Origin: Sphingobacteriaceae bacterium
GTDB lineage: Bacteria > Bacteroidota > Bacteroidia > UBA7662
DNA: 64,000 bases
Reading direction: 5' to 3'
Assembly (NCBI GenBank): GCA_013824115.1
Contig: PNNG01000005.1
Span: forward strand, 67,075 to 131,074
This document shows positions 22,631 through 30,953 of this stretch, one piece after another. Under the pieces are notes generated by a model. The model had not been told where the DNA came from. It did not search any database and worked only from the letters and a program-made list of their open reading frames with translations. Position 1 is the first letter of the stretch. Each line of letters begins with the position of its first letter. Made by a program: the position numbers and the translations under genes.

Positions 22631-22916
22631 TGTTTTTCTGCTTTAAAATTTGGAAGGAGAATTGATTGAAAAGAGCGTCTTGCGAGATACATGGTGTTCG
22701 ATAGGCGGTAGCGGTGACGGCTAGCATTGTATTTAACCGTTAGGCAAATTCCCTTCGTTCAGTGTTTGCTTCCTGGCTTTATGTCGACTTCAGGCATCCA
22801 TGCTTGCATTGACTGAGTCAGAAACGCTTATTGGTTCCTAAAAAATGGGTACTTATCGCCCTAAAATCAAGCATGGCGGATGGGTGACTGCATGTGAAAA
22901 TCGTGTTCTTTTGCAT
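22631..22916. other. Divergent intergenic region between gcvP and the ligase cluster
   Basis: No gene was identified. The ligase reading frame is open back to an ATG at 22845, but the sequence before 22917 is not like the family. A near -7 box TTCTTTTG (22906-22913, one mismatch) sits directly before the ATG at 22917. Confidence 0.4.
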
Positions 22917-24332
22917 ATGCCCAACTTCATTCGCACCCTCTTCGATGGCATGGCACAAGCCGGTACACGCGTTTTGCTCCGTTGGCCCGCAGCTGGCATG
23001 GTAACAGACTGGCGTGCCGATGTGCTTTTGTCGCTGGCCCAAGGCTTTTGCCTGCAAATAGGCCCGATGAAGTCGGTGCAAGGCCAAGTTTACATGCCTT
23101 TACAGGCCTTAACGGCGCCACGTTTGATGGCCCTATTATCGGTCATGGGTATGGGAGGAAGTGTGGTGGTGCCGCCGCCGGGCAAATGGCTTCCGCTATT
23201 GTGGCAGTGGCGCAAGCAGCCCCATTTTGGCGGAGTATTGTTGGTAGATACTTCGCCATGGGTACTGCGCTTGATGCTCAAGATGTTGGGCGTTGCTGTG
23301 TACCAGCTGAAAGCAGAAATGCTGCCGGGCAAACCCCTGCTGCCCGATTTGACACCCGCTTCCACGGCCCTCATCAGCTACAGTTCGGGCAGTACGGGCG
23401 CTCCCAAAATGCTGCAGCGCACGCATGCCCTGCTGGAGGCCCAGCACCAATGCCTCAAAAATTGCTTTCCGCCTTTTGAAGGGCAAATCGATAGCTCCTT
23501 GTTTCCCAATGTGCTGCTTCACCAGCTGGCTACGGCTACTTGCAGCCGCCTGCCTTTTGAACCAGGCACCCCTTTGGCGCAATGGCCTTTGGAAGCCGTA
23601 GCCCAAAGTTGGCAGCGGGGCGAGACAAATACCTTTACGGGCAATCCTTACTTTTTTAGGGAAATGTTGGCCCAGCAACGTGGGCCGTTCCCCGCCATGC
23701 AAGCCTGTGGCATTGGAGGGGCTCCGGTGGATGAAGATTTGCTGGCGGCCGTTCAACAGCTTTTTCCAAACGCCCAGCTCTATGTGATTTATGGAGCTAC
23801 CGAGGCCGAACCCATGGCGCTGCGGCATTACAGCAGCCCAGCAAACAAACGCCTGGGCTATGGTGTAGGCAAGCCGGTGGAGCTTCTGGAGGGCATGGAG
23901 ATTCGCCAACCACAAATGATTCGCGCTGGGGAGCAGTGGGTGCAGGCAGGTGAAATTTTTGTGCGGGGCAAACATGTATTGGCTTCCGCCGATGGCTGGC
24001 ATGGCACGGGCGATTTTGGCTATTTTTTGGAAGGACAACTCTACCTCAGTGCTAGGCGCGGAAATACCGAAGTTTGTGCAGGTTACCAGCATTATATGGT
24101 AGAACATGTACTGCGGTCGGAAACAGGCATTGTCCAGCTGGCCGTGCTCAGCCGCAGCACGGGCATAGCGGTATTTTACAGTGGTGAAGCCAGTGAAAAA
24201 CAGGTTGAAGGGCTCGTTAAACAGCATTTTCCTGAAATTCAGGCAATGCGCATAAAGCGACAAAAAGCAATTCCCCTCGACCAAAGGCACCGAAGCAAGG
24301 TGTTGTATCATAAATTGCAGTATGGAAACTGA
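22917..24332 (+). CDS. Adenylate-forming acyl/aryl ligase (AMP-binding family)
   Basis: First gene of a six-gene cluster, 471 residues from the chosen start (an in-frame ATG at 22845 would add 24). It belongs to the ANL superfamily. The P-loop is SYSSGSTGAPK near residue 155, the YGATEAEPM motif near 305, and the GTGDFGYF motif near 370. The C-terminal RHRSKVLYHKL segment holds the lysine used for adenylation. Such enzymes activate a carboxylate as acyl-AMP and transfer it to CoA, ACP or an amine. The compact N-terminus and the RHxSK ending recall OleC/long-chain acyl ligases rather than acetyl-CoA synthetase. It overlaps the next gene by 11 bases. The substrate is unknown; neighbours suggest a lipid. 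Confidence 0.85.
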   Translation: MPNFIRTLFDGMAQAGTRVLLRWPAAGMVTDWRADVLLSLAQGFCLQIGPMKSVQGQVYMPLQALTAPRLMALLSVMGMGGSVVVPPPGKWLPLLWQWRKQPHFGGVLLVDTSPWVLRLMLKMLGVAVYQLKAEMLPGKPLLPDLTPASTALISYSSGSTGAPKMLQRTHALLEAQHQCLKNCFPPFEGQIDSSLFPNVLLHQLATATCSRLPFEPGTPLAQWPLEAVAQSWQRGETNTFTGNPYFFREMLAQQRGPFPAMQACGIGGAPVDEDLLAAVQQLFPNAQLYVIYGATEAEPMALRHYSSPANKRLGYGVGKPVELLEGMEIRQPQMIRAGEQWVQAGEIFVRGKHVLASADGWHGTGDFGYFLEGQLYLSARRGNTEVCAGYQHYMVEHVLRSETGIVQLAVLSRSTGIAVFYSGEASEKQVEGLVKQHFPEIQAMRIKRQKAIPLDQRHRSKVLYHKLQYGN

Positions 24333-25407
24333 GTTTCGCTACCTCTCTTTCGATCAAATTCGCTACTCCATGGTTTGGGAGGGACAAAGCAGTTTGTTAG
24401 CTGCCCTCGAGCCCCAGCCTGGCGATGAGCTCTTGGTGATTTGCTCGGGTGGCTGCAATGTGCTTAATACCCTGCTGAGCGAGGCCGATAAGGTGTGGGC
24501 GGTGGATCTCAACCCCTTGCAAATTCGCCTACTCAACCTCAAATGCAGGGTCATAGAGCGTTTTCCCTATGAGGTTTTCAGCGGTTTGATGGGTTTTGAC
24601 GGGGAAGCAGGCATAGCCACTGCTGCCCGCCAGGTTTTGGCCGATTTACCCACCGAGGACCAATCCTTTTGGGAACCGCTTTTTGAACAATACCCCCAGG
24701 GATTGCTCTTAGCCGGCAGGCTCGAAGCCTACATTTGCCAGTTTTATACCCGCTTGGCACCGCATCAACAAGCCTTGATGGATGCCCTTTTTGCCGCCAC
24801 GAGCCTCACCGAACAAAATGCGGTGTTTGAGGAGCTGCAGCAAACCACCTTTGAGGCCACGTTCATCGACTATTTCAGCAGGCAGCAGTTGAGCAAGGGC
24901 CGCGACGAAAGACTTTTCAAGTACACCCGCGACCCCGGTGGAGAGCGTTTTTACGAGCGTTTGTGCCGTTACTTGCAGCAGCACCTGTTGGGCGAAAGCT
25001 ACATCTCACGCTTCTTTTTTTACGGTCCGGCCGGCATGCCCATGCACCTCCGACCCTCGTGCTACCAAGCGCAAAACCACCAGCGGCTGCGAAGCCAGTT
25101 GCACCGCTTGCACCGCCACAATGGCGAAGCCATCGATTTTCTGAACAGCGAAGCAGGCAGTCGGGTGACCAAAGCCAGTTTGTCGAACATTTTTGAGTAT
25201 ACCAGTCCCGAAATTTTCGCCCAAACCGTTCACCAGCTGCTGCAGCGCCCGCAATTGCGCTTCGTTTATTGGAATTTATTGAACAACCAAGGCGAAGACT
25301 TGCTGCATTTGCCCAGTTACCAGGAAGCAAAATCGGCAGCATTGAGTGCCCGAGAAGACTGTTTTTACTTTGATGCCTTGCATGTTTTTGAAACCCAAAC
25401 GCCATGA
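24322..25407 (+). CDS. BtaA-like (DUF3419) S-adenosylmethionine 3-amino-3-carboxypropyl transferase
   Basis: 361 residues. The SAM-binding core has LLVICSGGCNVLNTLL near residue 36 and VWAVDLNPLQIRLLNLK near 58, matching the BtaA family (SAGCN and AVDLNP-type motifs). BtaA moves the 3-amino-3-carboxypropyl group of SAM to diacylglycerol, the first step in betaine-lipid (DGTS) synthesis. No BtaB-type N-methyltransferase is next to it, so the product here may be a homoserine-type headgroup that is modified differently. It overlaps the ligase gene (11 bases) and the kinase gene (4 bases, ATGA). The acceptor is inferred only from the family; another hydroxyl-bearing acceptor is possible. Confidence 0.85.
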   Translation: METEFRYLSFDQIRYSMVWEGQSSLLAALEPQPGDELLVICSGGCNVLNTLLSEADKVWAVDLNPLQIRLLNLKCRVIERFPYEVFSGLMGFDGEAGIATAARQVLADLPTEDQSFWEPLFEQYPQGLLLAGRLEAYICQFYTRLAPHQQALMDALFAATSLTEQNAVFEELQQTTFEATFIDYFSRQQLSKGRDERLFKYTRDPGGERFYERLCRYLQQHLLGESYISRFFFYGPAGMPMHLRPSCYQAQNHQRLRSQLHRLHRHNGEAIDFLNSEAGSRVTKASLSNIFEYTSPEIFAQTVHQLLQRPQLRFVYWNLLNNQGEDLLHLPSYQEAKSAALSAREDCFYFDALHVFETQTP

Positions 25408-26555
25408 AAGACCATCCTTTTTTACAAGCCGCGCATGTAAACCGCCTTTTGCAAAGCAGATACGGGGCAGATGCCACCGTCTGCCAGCTGCGGGCCTACC
25501 CCATCGACAACAGTGCCAGCATTTTGGTGACGCTCACCTCCCAGCAAACCGACAGTGTAATGGGGCATTTTGGATTGGAATTATCTTGGCAAGCCCAAGG
25601 CCAACTGCACACAGCGCCATTGGTACTCAAGGTAAAGCCACACGGGCGCGAAATTGCCGATATGCTGGCAGGTTTGGCCCAGCTGAGCGATGCCGCCTTG
25701 GGTGCTGCCTACGCACCCCACAGCCACAATACAGGCTTTTACCAAACCCATGTGCGCGAAATTGAGGTTTACAAGCACTTGCCCCATGCCATTCAGCCCC
25801 AGATTGCGGGCTATTTGCTCGAGCCCGAAACCGATACCTACCAGCTGCTGATGCAAGACCTAACGGGCTTTGCGCAGCTCAACTCGGTGATGGCGGTACA
25901 TAGCTGGACGAACAGCCAAATAGAACGCGCCCTGAGCGATTTGGCCGCTTGGCACGCCTTTGCCCGCAACCAACTCCAACCGCTTTCAGCTGCCGCCTGG
26001 GCCGATACCGACCATCCGCATTATTGGCAGCAGGAAGCCCCCTTGTGGCAGGTGCTGCTCGATAAAGGGGCAGCGCGTTTTGCCGACTGCTATGCCCCGC
26101 AACTGCCAGAAGTATTGGCTGCGGGCTTGAAACAAATAGAGGCACTGCAAGCCCGTTTTAACGAAATGCCCAAAACACTCATACACAACGACGCCAATCC
26201 GCGCAACAGCTGTTTCCGTGCCGATGGCAGTTTTTGTTTGTACGACTGGGAGCTCAGTTGTAGACATGTACCTGTTTACGATGTCATAGAGCTGCTTTCC
26301 TTTGTACTCGAACCCGACCGCTACCCCCTCATCGGGCATTTTTTGCAGCATTACCGCCGGCAGTTGTGTAGGTTGTGGGCGGTGTGGGAAGCAGACGAGT
26401 TGTGGCAAAATGCCTTGGAACTCGCCTGGTATGCGTTCGGCTGGCACCGCTTGGGCATGTACACGATGGCACATGCCGTGGCACCTTATCCTTTTTTGCC
26501 GAGGGTATGGCAGGCTTACGGCGCTTTGGGCAAACACATCAAGCTGCTAGACTAG
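25404..26555 (+). CDS. Choline/aminoglycoside-kinase-like phosphotransferase
   Basis: 383 residues of the protein-kinase-like small-molecule phosphotransferase fold. The catalytic loop is LIHNDANPRNSCF near residue 253 (HxDxxxxN) and the metal-binding motif is LYDWELS near 277. The family phosphorylates alcohols such as choline, ethanolamine, aminoglycosides or ecdysteroids. It starts in a 4-base ATGA overlap with the BtaA-like gene, so the two are almost certainly co-translated and may act in sequence on one metabolite. A 116-base gap follows, which holds a TAAATTTA near-match to a -7 box (about 26652) and may carry an internal promoter. Confidence 0.8.
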   Translation: MKDHPFLQAAHVNRLLQSRYGADATVCQLRAYPIDNSASILVTLTSQQTDSVMGHFGLELSWQAQGQLHTAPLVLKVKPHGREIADMLAGLAQLSDAALGAAYAPHSHNTGFYQTHVREIEVYKHLPHAIQPQIAGYLLEPETDTYQLLMQDLTGFAQLNSVMAVHSWTNSQIERALSDLAAWHAFARNQLQPLSAAAWADTDHPHYWQQEAPLWQVLLDKGAARFADCYAPQLPEVLAAGLKQIEALQARFNEMPKTLIHNDANPRNSCFRADGSFCLYDWELSCRHVPVYDVIELLSFVLEPDRYPLIGHFLQHYRRQLCRLWAVWEADELWQNALELAWYAFGWHRLGMYTMAHAVAPYPFLPRVWQAYGALGKHIKLLD

Positions 26556-26671
26556 CGGTGAAAGGCCTGTGCCCATGCCTGCGAAACCCAAATGATAGCC
26601 ATGATGATCGCTGCGATTTTTTCGGGCAGGGCCTGCCCTAAAAGCGGGTCAATTACCCTAAATTTAGCCAT

Positions 26672-27541
26672 ATGAAACGCATGCGTTTGGGAGCCTATTT
26701 GCAAGAGCGTTTTCCGCCGGTGAATATGATGCTGTTTGCCATTTTGTTTATGGCGGTGTACAGTGTGGCCATTCAACAATTTTCGGCCAGCTTTACCCTC
26801 CTGGGCGGCATGTTGGCCACCATCAGCTTCTTTTTCAGGCTGCGGGTGATGGACGAAATCAAGGATTATGCACAAGATGCGGTGAATCATCCGCAGCGGG
26901 TGCTACAATCGGGCGGCATCAGTTTGCGGTTTTTGATGGGCTTTTCAGCCGTGTTGAGCCTTTCCGAAATCGGCTGGTCGTACCTCCGAGGCGGCTGGTG
27001 TCTGACCTTTTGGTTGATAGCGGTAGGCTACGCCTTTTTGATGCGTTACGAATTTTTTGTGGGTGCTTGGTTGCGCAAACGTTTGGTATTGTATGCCTTC
27101 AGCCACATGCTCATTATGCCGCTGGTAATTGCCTGGCTGTGGTTTGCTTGGCAGTCGGCATTTTCGCCTGTGCTGCTATTGCTCATGCTGCTGAGTTTGT
27201 TGGGTGGCTTTGTGTTTGAGCTCGCACGAAAAACCCATGCCGCCACTGCCGAACGCCCGGGCATCGACACTTATAGTTCGCTTTTAGGCAGCAAAAGGGC
27301 AGTAATGCTCATTTTGACAGTATTGTTTGCGGGTTTGGCTGCGCAATTAGGGTTGTTTGTTGCGCTCCATTTGCCTTTTTGGGCCTATGGAGTGGCGACT
27401 GCTTGTGCCCTTTGGGTGACTTTCACTTATCGGCAAGCACTTCAATCCAACGAAGAAAAGCATTTCCGCAAGGCCGAATTGGCCAGTTCGGTATATATGT
27501 TGGCAAGTTACCTGGTACTGATTGTAGGATGTTTGGCTTGA
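26672..27541 (+). CDS. UbiA-like integral membrane enzyme
   Basis: 289 residues with about eight membrane helices. Two Asp-rich polar loops follow helices in the UbiA pattern. The first reads FRLRVMDEIKDYAQD...HPQRVL (NDxxDxxxD-like, residues about 58-80) and the second ELARKTHAATAERPGIDTY (about 185-203). UbiA enzymes attach a prenyl or related pyrophosphate-activated chain to an acceptor in the membrane. It overlaps the dikinase-like gene by 13 bases. I see the motifs clearly but cannot name the donor or acceptor. A role in placing a lipid chain fits the neighbours. Some divergent UbiA-like proteins have no known function, so this is a fold-level call. Confidence 0.7.
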   Translation: MKRMRLGAYLQERFPPVNMMLFAILFMAVYSVAIQQFSASFTLLGGMLATISFFFRLRVMDEIKDYAQDAVNHPQRVLQSGGISLRFLMGFSAVLSLSEIGWSYLRGGWCLTFWLIAVGYAFLMRYEFFVGAWLRKRLVLYAFSHMLIMPLVIAWLWFAWQSAFSPVLLLLMLLSLLGGFVFELARKTHAATAERPGIDTYSSLLGSKRAVMLILTVLFAGLAAQLGLFVALHLPFWAYGVATACALWVTFTYRQALQSNEEKHFRKAELASSVYMLASYLVLIVGCLA

Positions 27542-29898
27542 TTCAAAAACAACAATTGGGTGGCAAAGCGCGTGGATTGCGGCAACTGCGCGATGCAGGT
27601 TGCAGGGTACCGCCCTTCGTAACCCTTCCGGCGAATTGGTTCACTCCTTGGCTCGAAAACGATTACAGCCTGCGCCCGGGCTGGGAAAACAGCAGCAATT
27701 TGGCTTTGTTGCCCGGCATGCTGGCCGCCGTGGGCATCAACGAAGCCGTGCTGGCCGTACGCTCGTCGGCTTTGGGTGAAGACGGACAAGAACACGCCCA
27801 TCCGGGCATGCTCGATAGTGTGTTGGCCGTTGAGCCCACACAGTTGCATGCAGCCATTGCCCAAGTGGTGAAAAGCGCCAACAGCGAACGGGTGCAAGCT
27901 TACCGGCGCGAGAAGGGCTTATCAGGCCGACTGCTGCCCGCCGTGATGGTGCAGCAATGGCTCCAGGCCGACCTGAGCGGCGTGGTTTTTAGCACTAATC
28001 CACTTTATCCGCACGAAATGCTCATTCATACGGTCAGCGGGGCCGGCGAAGCTTTGGTGCAGGGACAAAAAGAACCTGCCGAATACGCCTTTGACAAAGC
28101 CAGCGGAAAGTGCTACTGGCAGCAGCTGCCTACAGACGAAACCTACCTTGATGCGGCGCTGCTGCAAGAACTTTTCGACACAGCCAAAAAACTTGAGCGC
28201 CAAATGGGCATGCCACTCGACCTAGAGTTTTGTGTGGTTCATGGCGAAATATTCTGGCTGCAAATGCGACCCATCACCACCCCACCCGTGAGCCAGTTGG
28301 TGCTCGACAATGCCAACATCCAGGAAAGTTATTGCGGACCCACCTCTGAGCTCGGTTTCAGCTTTGCCCGTCGCGCCTATGCTACAGTGTATACCCAAAC
28401 CATGCGGGCGCTCGGCTTGCCCGAGAGTAAGGTGCAAGCGCAAAAAGAAGTAGTGAACAACCTGCTTTACCACCACCAGGGCCGGGTGTACTACAACATC
28501 AACCATTGGTACCGGGGTTTGCAATTGTTACCGTCGTTCAAGCAAAACAAGGCCGATATGGAGCGCATGATGGGGCTCGAAAGTCCGGTTGCCCTGGTAA
28601 ACGACCGCCGCCTGCCCTGGTACCAGCTGCCTGGACGCTTGCCGGCTCTGTTGCTCAACCTGGGTCGGTTGCTTTGGGCTTTCAAACGACTTCCGTCGGC
28701 AACACAGCAATTCAACAAGCATTTTGATGCGGTTTTTACATCATTTTATGCCGCCCAACCTGCGCAATTTTCGGAAACCGACTGTCACAACTGGTTTCAA
28801 AAGCTCAACAGCGAACTGCTGCATCGCTGGGAGGTGCCCATTGTGAACGATTTTTATGTGATGATGCAAAACGGTGGTGCCCACCGCCGCCTACAAGCCA
28901 AGGGCATTGCCGAACCCGAGGCTTGGCTCCGTGAGCGCCTGCATCAACAAGCGGCCCTGCCCTCGTTGGCGCCTTTGCATGGGTTGCAAGCATTGGCCCA
29001 AGTAGCCCGCCAACAACCCGATTTGTTGGCGCTCTTGCTGGAAGAAAAGGAGCTCGATTTCAACGCATTGGCACAGCGTTTTTCGCACTTTCATGCCCAG
29101 TTGCAGGCATTCATCCACCAATTTGGCGACCGGGTGATGGGCGAGCTCAAGCTCGAAAGCCATACCATGCGCACCCATCCTTCCCTGGCCATCGGCTATT
29201 TGCGGCCGCTATTGCAGCGCGAAGCCACCCAAAGCAGCAAGCAGGCCGATGTGCCGATGGAAAAATGGCTCGATCCGCTGCGTGCAGGCATTTTCAGGCG
29301 CGAAGCCTTGCGCCTGCAACGCACCCGTTTGTTTGGCATGTACCGGAGTTTGTTCAGGCGCATGGGCGAATTGCTGGCTGCCAAAGGCACTTTGCCCGAA
29401 GCGGAGGCTATTTTTTATTGGCAATTGGAAGAGTTGGAAGCTTATTGGGAACAAGGCGCTGTGGTTACAACCGAAACGCTTCAGCTGCGCCAAAAGCAGC
29501 ATGCCGAATGGGTCCAATCGGAACCGCCGGGACGGGTGTATTTACCGGGCCGACAAGCCAGTTCCCATGTGCAGCCAACGGGTGATTTTTGGCAGGGACA
29601 AGCCGCCGTGGCCGGTACGGTAGAAGGCGAAGTGGTGTGCATTGCGGGTCAGGGCGACCTCAAAGACCTGCGCGGCAAAATTCTTTGCGCTTTGCGCACC
29701 GATCCGGGTTGGACGCCCCTTTTCCCCGGCTGCCGCGGTGTAATCATCGAACGCGGTTCAAGCCTGTCGCACTCGGTGATCGTGCTGCGCGAGCTGGGCA
29801 TTCCCACCATCATCAATGTGCGGGGCATTTCGGCCAGCCTACGCGATGGCGACCGGGTGCAGCTCGACGGCCAGGCCGGAACCCTTCAACGTCTATGA
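27529..29898 (+). CDS. PEP-synthase/rifampin-phosphotransferase-like dikinase
   Basis: 789 residues from the ATG at 27529, inside the end of the UbiA-like gene (the frame opens earlier at 27379, but that part overlaps real coding sequence). Residues 1-265 form an ATP-grasp domain of the PPDK_N type (GGKARGLRQL, LAVRSSALGEDG, QMRPITT). A long helical middle section follows. The last 75 residues are the swivelling phosphohistidine domain, with H in RGSSLSHSVIVLREL near residue 748. There is no C-terminal PEP/pyruvate barrel, so it is not a PEP synthase. The three-part layout matches rifampin phosphotransferase, where the middle domain binds the substrate that is phosphorylated. The substrate here is unknown. 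Confidence 0.8.
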   Translation: MFGLIQKQQLGGKARGLRQLRDAGCRVPPFVTLPANWFTPWLENDYSLRPGWENSSNLALLPGMLAAVGINEAVLAVRSSALGEDGQEHAHPGMLDSVLAVEPTQLHAAIAQVVKSANSERVQAYRREKGLSGRLLPAVMVQQWLQADLSGVVFSTNPLYPHEMLIHTVSGAGEALVQGQKEPAEYAFDKASGKCYWQQLPTDETYLDAALLQELFDTAKKLERQMGMPLDLEFCVVHGEIFWLQMRPITTPPVSQLVLDNANIQESYCGPTSELGFSFARRAYATVYTQTMRALGLPESKVQAQKEVVNNLLYHHQGRVYYNINHWYRGLQLLPSFKQNKADMERMMGLESPVALVNDRRLPWYQLPGRLPALLLNLGRLLWAFKRLPSATQQFNKHFDAVFTSFYAAQPAQFSETDCHNWFQKLNSELLHRWEVPIVNDFYVMMQNGGAHRRLQAKGIAEPEAWLRERLHQQAALPSLAPLHGLQALAQVARQQPDLLALLLEEKELDFNALAQRFSHFHAQLQAFIHQFGDRVMGELKLESHTMRTHPSLAIGYLRPLLQREATQSSKQADVPMEKWLDPLRAGIFRREALRLQRTRLFGMYRSLFRRMGELLAAKGTLPEAEAIFYWQLEELEAYWEQGAVVTTETLQLRQKQHAEWVQSEPPGRVYLPGRQASSHVQPTGDFWQGQAAVAGTVEGEVVCIAGQGDLKDLRGKILCALRTDPGWTPLFPGCRGVIIERGSSLSHSVIVLRELGIPTIINVRGISASLRDGDRVQLDGQAGTLQRL

Positions 29899-30953
29899 CA
29901 ATGATGGTACAAGACATCGAGCGGCAGCTGCCACCAGCCTTTTTCGATTGGGTGCCAGCACTCTACCAGCAGCTGCCCTATCAACCCGAAGAAAGTCCCG
30001 AAAAAGTACACGCACTTTTAGCCCTGCAGCACGGCCAAACCCGCATGCGGATGTTCCTCTTACCCGGCAAAGCCCGCTTGCTGGGCATGGTTAGGCCCGG
30101 CAGTAAAACCGCCCTTTTTGGTTTTTGGGAAGGCGAAAATGATTTGGAAAGTCATGCCCAGCTGTTTGTCGCCTTCGAACAATGGGCGCTCGAACAAGGC
30201 TGCGAACAGGTAGAAGGCCCCAAAAACTTCAATACCTTTCATGCCTACCGCTTGCGCACCAGCGAACCATCGTGGCAGCAGTTCAACCGAGAGCCTGTGA
30301 ATCCGCCCTATTACCCAGTCTTGTTGCAAGCTTTGGGTTTTGAGGTGCTCCATCATTTCGAAAGCCGCAAAATCAGCACATCGGTAGTGCCCGAGGTGTA
30401 TGGCAGCAAGCAACAGTTGGTCGACAGTGTGAAGGACCTGCCTTTTGCTTTCATTCCACTCAATGCCCAAAGCTGGCAAACCCACGCAGCTGCCATTTAC
30501 GAACTTGTGGGCGAAATATTTGGCCAAAATCCGGGTTACCAGGCCATTTCGCGGGCCGAATTTGAGTTGCTTTACAATGCCGAATATGCCGCCATGTTGT
30601 GTCGGCACAGCTCGGTGCTCTTGGCCGAACGCAGCAGCGGCCGCCTGGTAGCCATCAGCCTGTGTCACCCCAATTACAGTCCCCTGAAATTATCGGAGCC
30701 AGCCGTCTTCGAAAAACACTACCCCTTGCTCAAGCACCGCACCTTGCTGGCCAAAACCCAAGGCGTGCACCCCCATTACCGACAACAGGGCCTCATGAAT
30801 TACCTCGGCGCTTACGGCATGCTCAGCTTTAGGCAATTTTACGACGACATCATTTTTTGCCTCATGCGGCACGACAACCCCTCGCTGCGCTTCACCGATC
30901 CCTTTCCGTATGAAAGGGCCGCGTATGCGGTGTATGGGAAGGGGTTGGGATAG
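29895..30953 (+). CDS. GNAT-like (YghO-type) N-acyltransferase
   Basis: 352 residues, starting in a 4-base ATGA overlap with the dikinase gene; two further ATGs follow within 9 bases. The middle has the VEGPKNFNTF...NPPYYPVLLQALGF pattern of YghO-like proteins and the C-terminal half has HYRQQGLMNYLGAYGM, like an acyl-CoA-binding GNAT loop. Some relatives of this type act as N-acyltransferases in bacterial ceramide synthesis (from memory, not checked). Acylation of an amino group is therefore a plausible last step in this cluster, for example on the aminocarboxypropyl group that the BtaA-like enzyme adds. The reaction is inferred. Confidence 0.65.
   Translation: MTMMVQDIERQLPPAFFDWVPALYQQLPYQPEESPEKVHALLALQHGQTRMRMFLLPGKARLLGMVRPGSKTALFGFWEGENDLESHAQLFVAFEQWALEQGCEQVEGPKNFNTFHAYRLRTSEPSWQQFNREPVNPPYYPVLLQALGFEVLHHFESRKISTSVVPEVYGSKQQLVDSVKDLPFAFIPLNAQSWQTHAAAIYELVGEIFGQNPGYQAISRAEFELLYNAEYAAMLCRHSSVLLAERSSGRLVAISLCHPNYSPLKLSEPAVFEKHYPLLKHRTLLAKTQGVHPHYRQQGLMNYLGAYGMLSFRQFYDDIIFCLMRHDNPSLRFTDPFPYERAAYAVYGKGLG

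Follow-up and report, generated by a model that had tools for sequence, protein, structure and literature searches.

Gene content and layout of the locus

The stretch of Sphingobacteriaceae DNA analysed here (the window, 64,000 nt) carries between positions 22917 and 30953 six plus-strand ORFs, A, B, K, U, D, and G, one of which encodes a relative of the betaine-lipid enzyme BtaA, and the question is what such a combination of enzymes makes. An earlier reading of the bare DNA (the sequence-only reading) had described six genes running in one direction with overlaps of 4–13 bases, and the ORF coordinates agree: A/B overlap by 11 bases, B/K by 4, U/D by 13, and D/G by 4, and the 116 bases separating K and U form the sole gap in the set (Table 1).

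Table 1. The six ORFs of the cluster, with positions in the window.
Gene	Predicted product	Position	Strand	Evidence
A	AMP-forming acyl ligase related to the PRK09274/OleC-like group	22917..24332	+	Pfam AMP-binding 1.2e-20
B	DUF3419 class I SAM-fold protein, putative 3-amino-3-carboxypropyl transferase, not of the BtaA subfamily	24322..25407	+	Pfam DUF3419 1.5e-35
K	APH/EcKL-type kinase	25404..26555	+	Pfam APH 5.3e-9, EcKL 3.3e-5; HNDxNPRN motif
U	UbiA-like membrane prenyltransferase homologue with altered second motif	26672..27541	+	Pfam UbiA 1e-14
D	ATP-grasp + phosphohistidine dikinase of rifampin-phosphotransferase/PigC layout	27529..29898 (ATG 27529)	+	Pfam PPDK_N 2.7e-36, PEP-utilizers 1.9e-18
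G	Tandem-GNAT acyltransferase, YghO-like	29895..30953	+	Predicted structure, Foldseek

Pfam matches were obtained for five of the six proteins, G having none. For A, a second in-frame ATG lies at 22845, and the NCBIfam model PRK09274 matched at 4.9e-35 with a score far under that model's cut-off. By eye, A appears to lack the Asp that binds the alpha-ammonium group in NRPS-type enzymes, which we counted against the model favoured below. K carries the HxDxxxxN-type kinase motif noticed earlier. U retains the first motif of the UbiA prenyltransferases (DExKDxxxD), whereas the second is exchanged for ExxRKxxxxxxE; its invariant residues are D61, E62, K64, D65, and D69 and E183, R186, K187, and E194. 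D meets the dikinase layout, an ATP-grasp domain plus a mobile phosphohistidine domain, and the latter conserves the motifs SxSHS, which contains a His, and DNxNIxESY. A sequence search of the PDB gave no match for G, and its predicted structure (mean pLDDT 94.3) matched the tandem-GNAT structures 2wpw (1e-12), MshD 2c27 (3e-10), and L-PGS 4v36 (1e-8) in Foldseek, bearing out the earlier YghO/GNAT-like label. G is a putative N-acyltransferase; N-acylation of a sphingoid amine is the reaction of bacterial ceramide synthase (CerS).

B is related to BtaA but lies outside its clade

B scored 123.5 bits with the DUF3419 model (cut-off 28.2), compared with 367–382 bits over the full length for real BtaA proteins. 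The structural model of B (pLDDT 94) gave weak matches to SAM-methyltransferase folds, and a sequence search of the PDB returned no match. As BtaA reference we used a Sinorhizobium plasmid gene followed by a methyltransferase gene. Six SAM-site residues (W19, E20, S42, G44, N46, and D62) are common to B and four BtaB-linked BtaA proteins. In the second half, however, cluster B proteins have LS[ND]IFEY and WNL (LSNIFEY in the window) where BtaA has LLDxxDW and R-T/S-x. In a tree in which long branches were noted, BtaA forms a single clade (SH-aLRT 99), with the cluster B proteins on the same side of a second branch (89). Because of this separate clade and the different second-half motif, B is, by its sequence, a DUF3419 superfamily member outside BtaA proper. 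The sequence-only reading had named a lack of BtaA-type residues in B as grounds for its refutation; those of the SAM site are there, in keeping with the family match, but the LLDxxDW motif is absent and the clade differs. Since B is only remotely related to BtaA, one should not presume that diacylglycerol is its acceptor.

The same reading had held that this is not the standard betaine-lipid route, and indeed no BtaB methyltransferase is found among the ORFs of the 18–36 kb region of the window. B might still yield diacylglyceryl-homoserine in a variant of that route, the other genes modifying the product, as the shared Pfam family and SAM-site residues would allow. We regard this as distinctly unlikely, given that B lies outside the BtaA clade with LSNIFEY in place of the LLDxQDW-type motif, that it has no BtaB neighbour, and that U and D are near-constant partners.

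Other DUF3419 arrangements were also seen. A Shinella plasmid (L103:3608-7080) has a further DUF3419 gene, adjacent to one for an adenylate-forming enzyme and to other genes, possibly a separate pathway. The locus L143:8973-10835 encodes a DUF3419 protein with a PEMT-type methyltransferase domain fused at its N terminus, and genes for a YegS-like kinase, a tandem GNAT, and a LysA-like decarboxylase lie nearby.

The gene set recurs in distant bacteria

Matches to B occurred in four of 100 relatives, the window's own genome being one of them; the 16 genomes listed from the same genus or family (G001–G016) had none. Because B is so patchy among near relatives, the cluster is sporadic and has probably moved horizontally. 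Scanning the genomes of bacteria and archaea with a profile yielded 80 loci, each of which was scored with profiles of every gene. The combination of families recurs in most of them, in Bacteroidota, Myxococcota, and one alphaproteobacterium, and is present in at least three bacterial phyla. Since most of these loci from other genomes repeat it, the grouping is not due to chance; the families thus occur together, as the co-occurrence check proposed with the sequence-only reading had asked, in two main orders.

In type I, found in Hymenobacter, Pontibacter, and Spirosomataceae, A-B-K lies divergent from or colinear with G-D-U. Type II has the order H-U-D-B-V-G-A and occurs in Dyadobacter, Chitinophagaceae, Flavobacteriales, and Saprospiraceae; here H is a homologue of HMG-CoA reductase (HMGR), and V, a small membrane protein, has VTE5/Dgk1-like motifs. 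On the alphaproteobacterial plasmid the order is that of type II, H being cut off by the end of the record.

High-scoring B proteins occur in about 12 of 395 Bacteroidota genomes, and lower-scoring DUF3419 proteins in 33 more; in the three of these 33 that we examined (L147, L149, and L152), a BtaB-type methyltransferase immediately adjoins BtaA. A search with U was positive in 27 of 284 Myxococcota genomes. Because several Myxococcota loci hold just U-D-B and an MMPL exporter, U-D-B looks like the core of the cluster. Two other Myxococcota loci (L213 and L216) have U, D, and G without B nearby; the core may work with other partners too. The MMPL exporter and the additional enzymes vary among loci: MMPL is present at 21 type I loci; the window's own genome has only distant MMPL homologues (23–24% identity). 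CDP-alcohol transferase genes occur at five type II loci, with a CdsA-like gene adjoining in four.

Relatives carry an altered HMG-CoA reductase homologue

The fate of the presumed headgroup is chiefly informed by modules that are not visible in the window, the HMGR-like and decarboxylase genes of its relatives. The substrate pocket of HMGR includes Ser684, and Lys735 is among the hydrogen-bonding residues (PMC3875450). Aligned with solved class I HMGR structures, the control chosen because the mevalonate-pathway HMGRs of the same genomes are too divergent, cluster H proteins retain the catalytic Glu, Asp, Lys, Asp, and His wherever covered, but have Glu at the Ser684 position in 36 of 36 covered sequences and Lys at the Lys735 position in none of 37. 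We take Ser684 and Lys735 to hold the HMG carboxylate, and because both are replaced, the natural reading is that H acts on something other than HMG-CoA. The acidic replacement residue suggests a substrate that bears an amine or amide.

H was also considered as a source of mevalonate for isoprenoids. Dyadobacter and similar bacteria have the MEP pathway, with the cluster H as their only HMGR, and the MEP-pathway genomes tested contain neither a mevalonate decarboxylase nor an HMG-CoA synthase (PF08540), which rules out this role there.

Altered HMGRs are not confined to clusters. Seventeen type I genomes (Hymenobacter and relatives) have unclustered copies with the same pattern at S684 and K735, and the closest relative of the window has an Asp version. 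Hymenobacter and Microscilla (L161, L160, and L162–L178) encode a solitary, N-terminally extended homologue that has lost the same HMG-carboxylate residues. In the window's own genome (85% complete), no cluster-type H was found, the only HMGR found there being a divergent mevalonate-type one. Of 31 type I genomes that we searched, 11 (Pontibacter, Spirosomataceae, and others) lack an HMGR of any kind, so a reduction step cannot be universal. Three Myxococcota genomes encode H-K fusion proteins.

Kinase and decarboxylase modules are exchanged among loci

Three unrelated families fill the kinase slot: K, V (VTE5/Dgk1-like), and a YegS/DAGK-type protein. We presume the family of V from its VTE5/FOLK-like motifs; a PDB sequence search with V gave no match, and weak Pfam matches to its long form were dismissed as noise. 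Four loci carry a decarboxylase, either a PS decarboxylase or a LysA-like protein. None of the four has A or H, whereas A is present in 88 of 108 others, in a small sample and with counts that ignore kinship. The PS decarboxylase gene overlaps the adjoining cluster genes in L141 and L142, and at another locus a LysA-like gene lies close to B. Decarboxylases linked to the cluster in this way fit an amino-acid product, and because kinases also occur in these variants, the kinase may act on something other than the product of the reductase.

The same modules could be arranged as isoprenoid salvage and prenyl transfer. Plant VTE5 and VTE6 perform two successive phosphorylations of an isoprenoid alcohol; similarly, A and H would make the alcohol from an isoprenoid acid, the kinase and D would phosphorylate it twice, U would attach the prenyl group to an acceptor, which B and G would decorate. 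This chain employs every enzyme in sequence, agrees with the presumed family of V, and fits the IPP isomerase and polyprenyl synthase seen by eye 3–4 kb downstream of the cluster at L141. Nevertheless, U is missing the second Asp motif, a purely hydrophobic substrate is not what the Glu of H at position S684 suggests, and decarboxylases in place of A and H would be left unexplained, so that we consider this route unlikely.

A proposed pathway to a SAM-derived polar lipid

Because relatives carry MMPL exporters, lipid kinases, CdsA, CDP-alcohol transferase, and PS decarboxylase, we read the cluster, from its sequence and its neighbours, as most likely devoted to polar-lipid synthesis. The polar lipid of the sequence-only reading thus gains from a conserved cluster with lipid-type neighbours, whereas the diacylglycerol acceptor of BtaA cannot be carried over. 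The same neighbours, together with the UbiA homologue, argue against a diffusible metabolite such as a metallophore or signal, and none of the recurrent neighbour families was recognised as a siderophore receptor, although one TonB-type outer-membrane-like family lies near the Hymenobacter loci. SAM aminocarboxypropyl transfer makes metallophores too, and the set of HMGR, ligase, and GNAT resembles the mevalonyl step of fungal siderophores; even so, we hold a diffusible product to be very unlikely. A related mevalonyl-CoA/siderophore scheme, with A as ligase and G as acyltransferase on mevalonate, loses ground because the HMG-carboxylate residues are gone and the neighbours are of lipid type.

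Returning to the polar lipid, we give somewhat less than even odds (about 45%) to the whole model, in which the headgroup derives from the 3-amino-3-carboxypropyl (homoserine-type) group of SAM. The gene set, its conservation, the module swaps, and the residue changes are observations; from these we infer the whole chemistry, which step follows which, and what U and D act on. U and D would ready a hydrophobic acceptor, onto which B would move the aminocarboxypropyl group of SAM. G would N-acylate the headgroup amine, and A would activate the carboxylate that B has introduced. Where the order is type II, H would in most relatives then reduce the activated carboxylate to an alcohol, whereas at the decarboxylase-bearing loci the carboxylate would be removed instead. 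A kinase, which is K in the window and a VTE5/Dgk1-like or YegS-type protein elsewhere, would phosphorylate an alcohol to give a SAM-derived analogue of ceramide phosphate, which the MMPL protein, where its gene is present, may export. That this amounts to a ceramide-like lipid class made without serine palmitoyltransferase, its SAM-derived amino-acid headgroup being reduced from carboxylate to alcohol by a repurposed HMGR before a kinase acts, is a tentative possibility.

If true, the model would add an undescribed polar-lipid route in Bacteroidota and Myxococcota, which could explain part of their unidentified aminolipids, and would give the HMGR fold a second use. Because the modules swap (reductase versus decarboxylase; three kinase families), the chemistry can be tested one gene at a time.

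Comparison with known systems

A description of this pathway was not found in the open-access literature searched; in one candidate paper (PMC12419801), "aminocarboxypropyl" appears solely in the reference list, and the UbiA neighbourhood is of another kind. Among known systems, D shares its ATP-grasp and phosphohistidine domains with rifampin phosphotransferase and the prodigiosin ligases PigC/RedH, which it matched in searches, but it forms a distinct family with a UbiA-like partner nearly always present. The H proteins of relatives have the fold family and catalytic residues of HMGR, but lack the Ser and Lys for the HMG carboxylate and are found in MEP-pathway genomes. With BtaA/BtaB betaine-lipid synthesis, the cluster has the DUF3419 family and SAM-site residues of B in common; it differs in having U and D and no BtaB, and in the motif and clade of B.

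In its set of roles, the cluster is reminiscent of the Caulobacter ceramide/phosphosphingolipid pathway (AasR, CerS, CpgB), in which an adenylating ligase, an N-acyltransferase, and a lipid kinase act on an amino-alcohol lipid (PMC11324152; PMC10331486). However, neither serine palmitoyltransferase nor CerR was recognised in the cluster, where the amino group would come from SAM via the DUF3419 protein.
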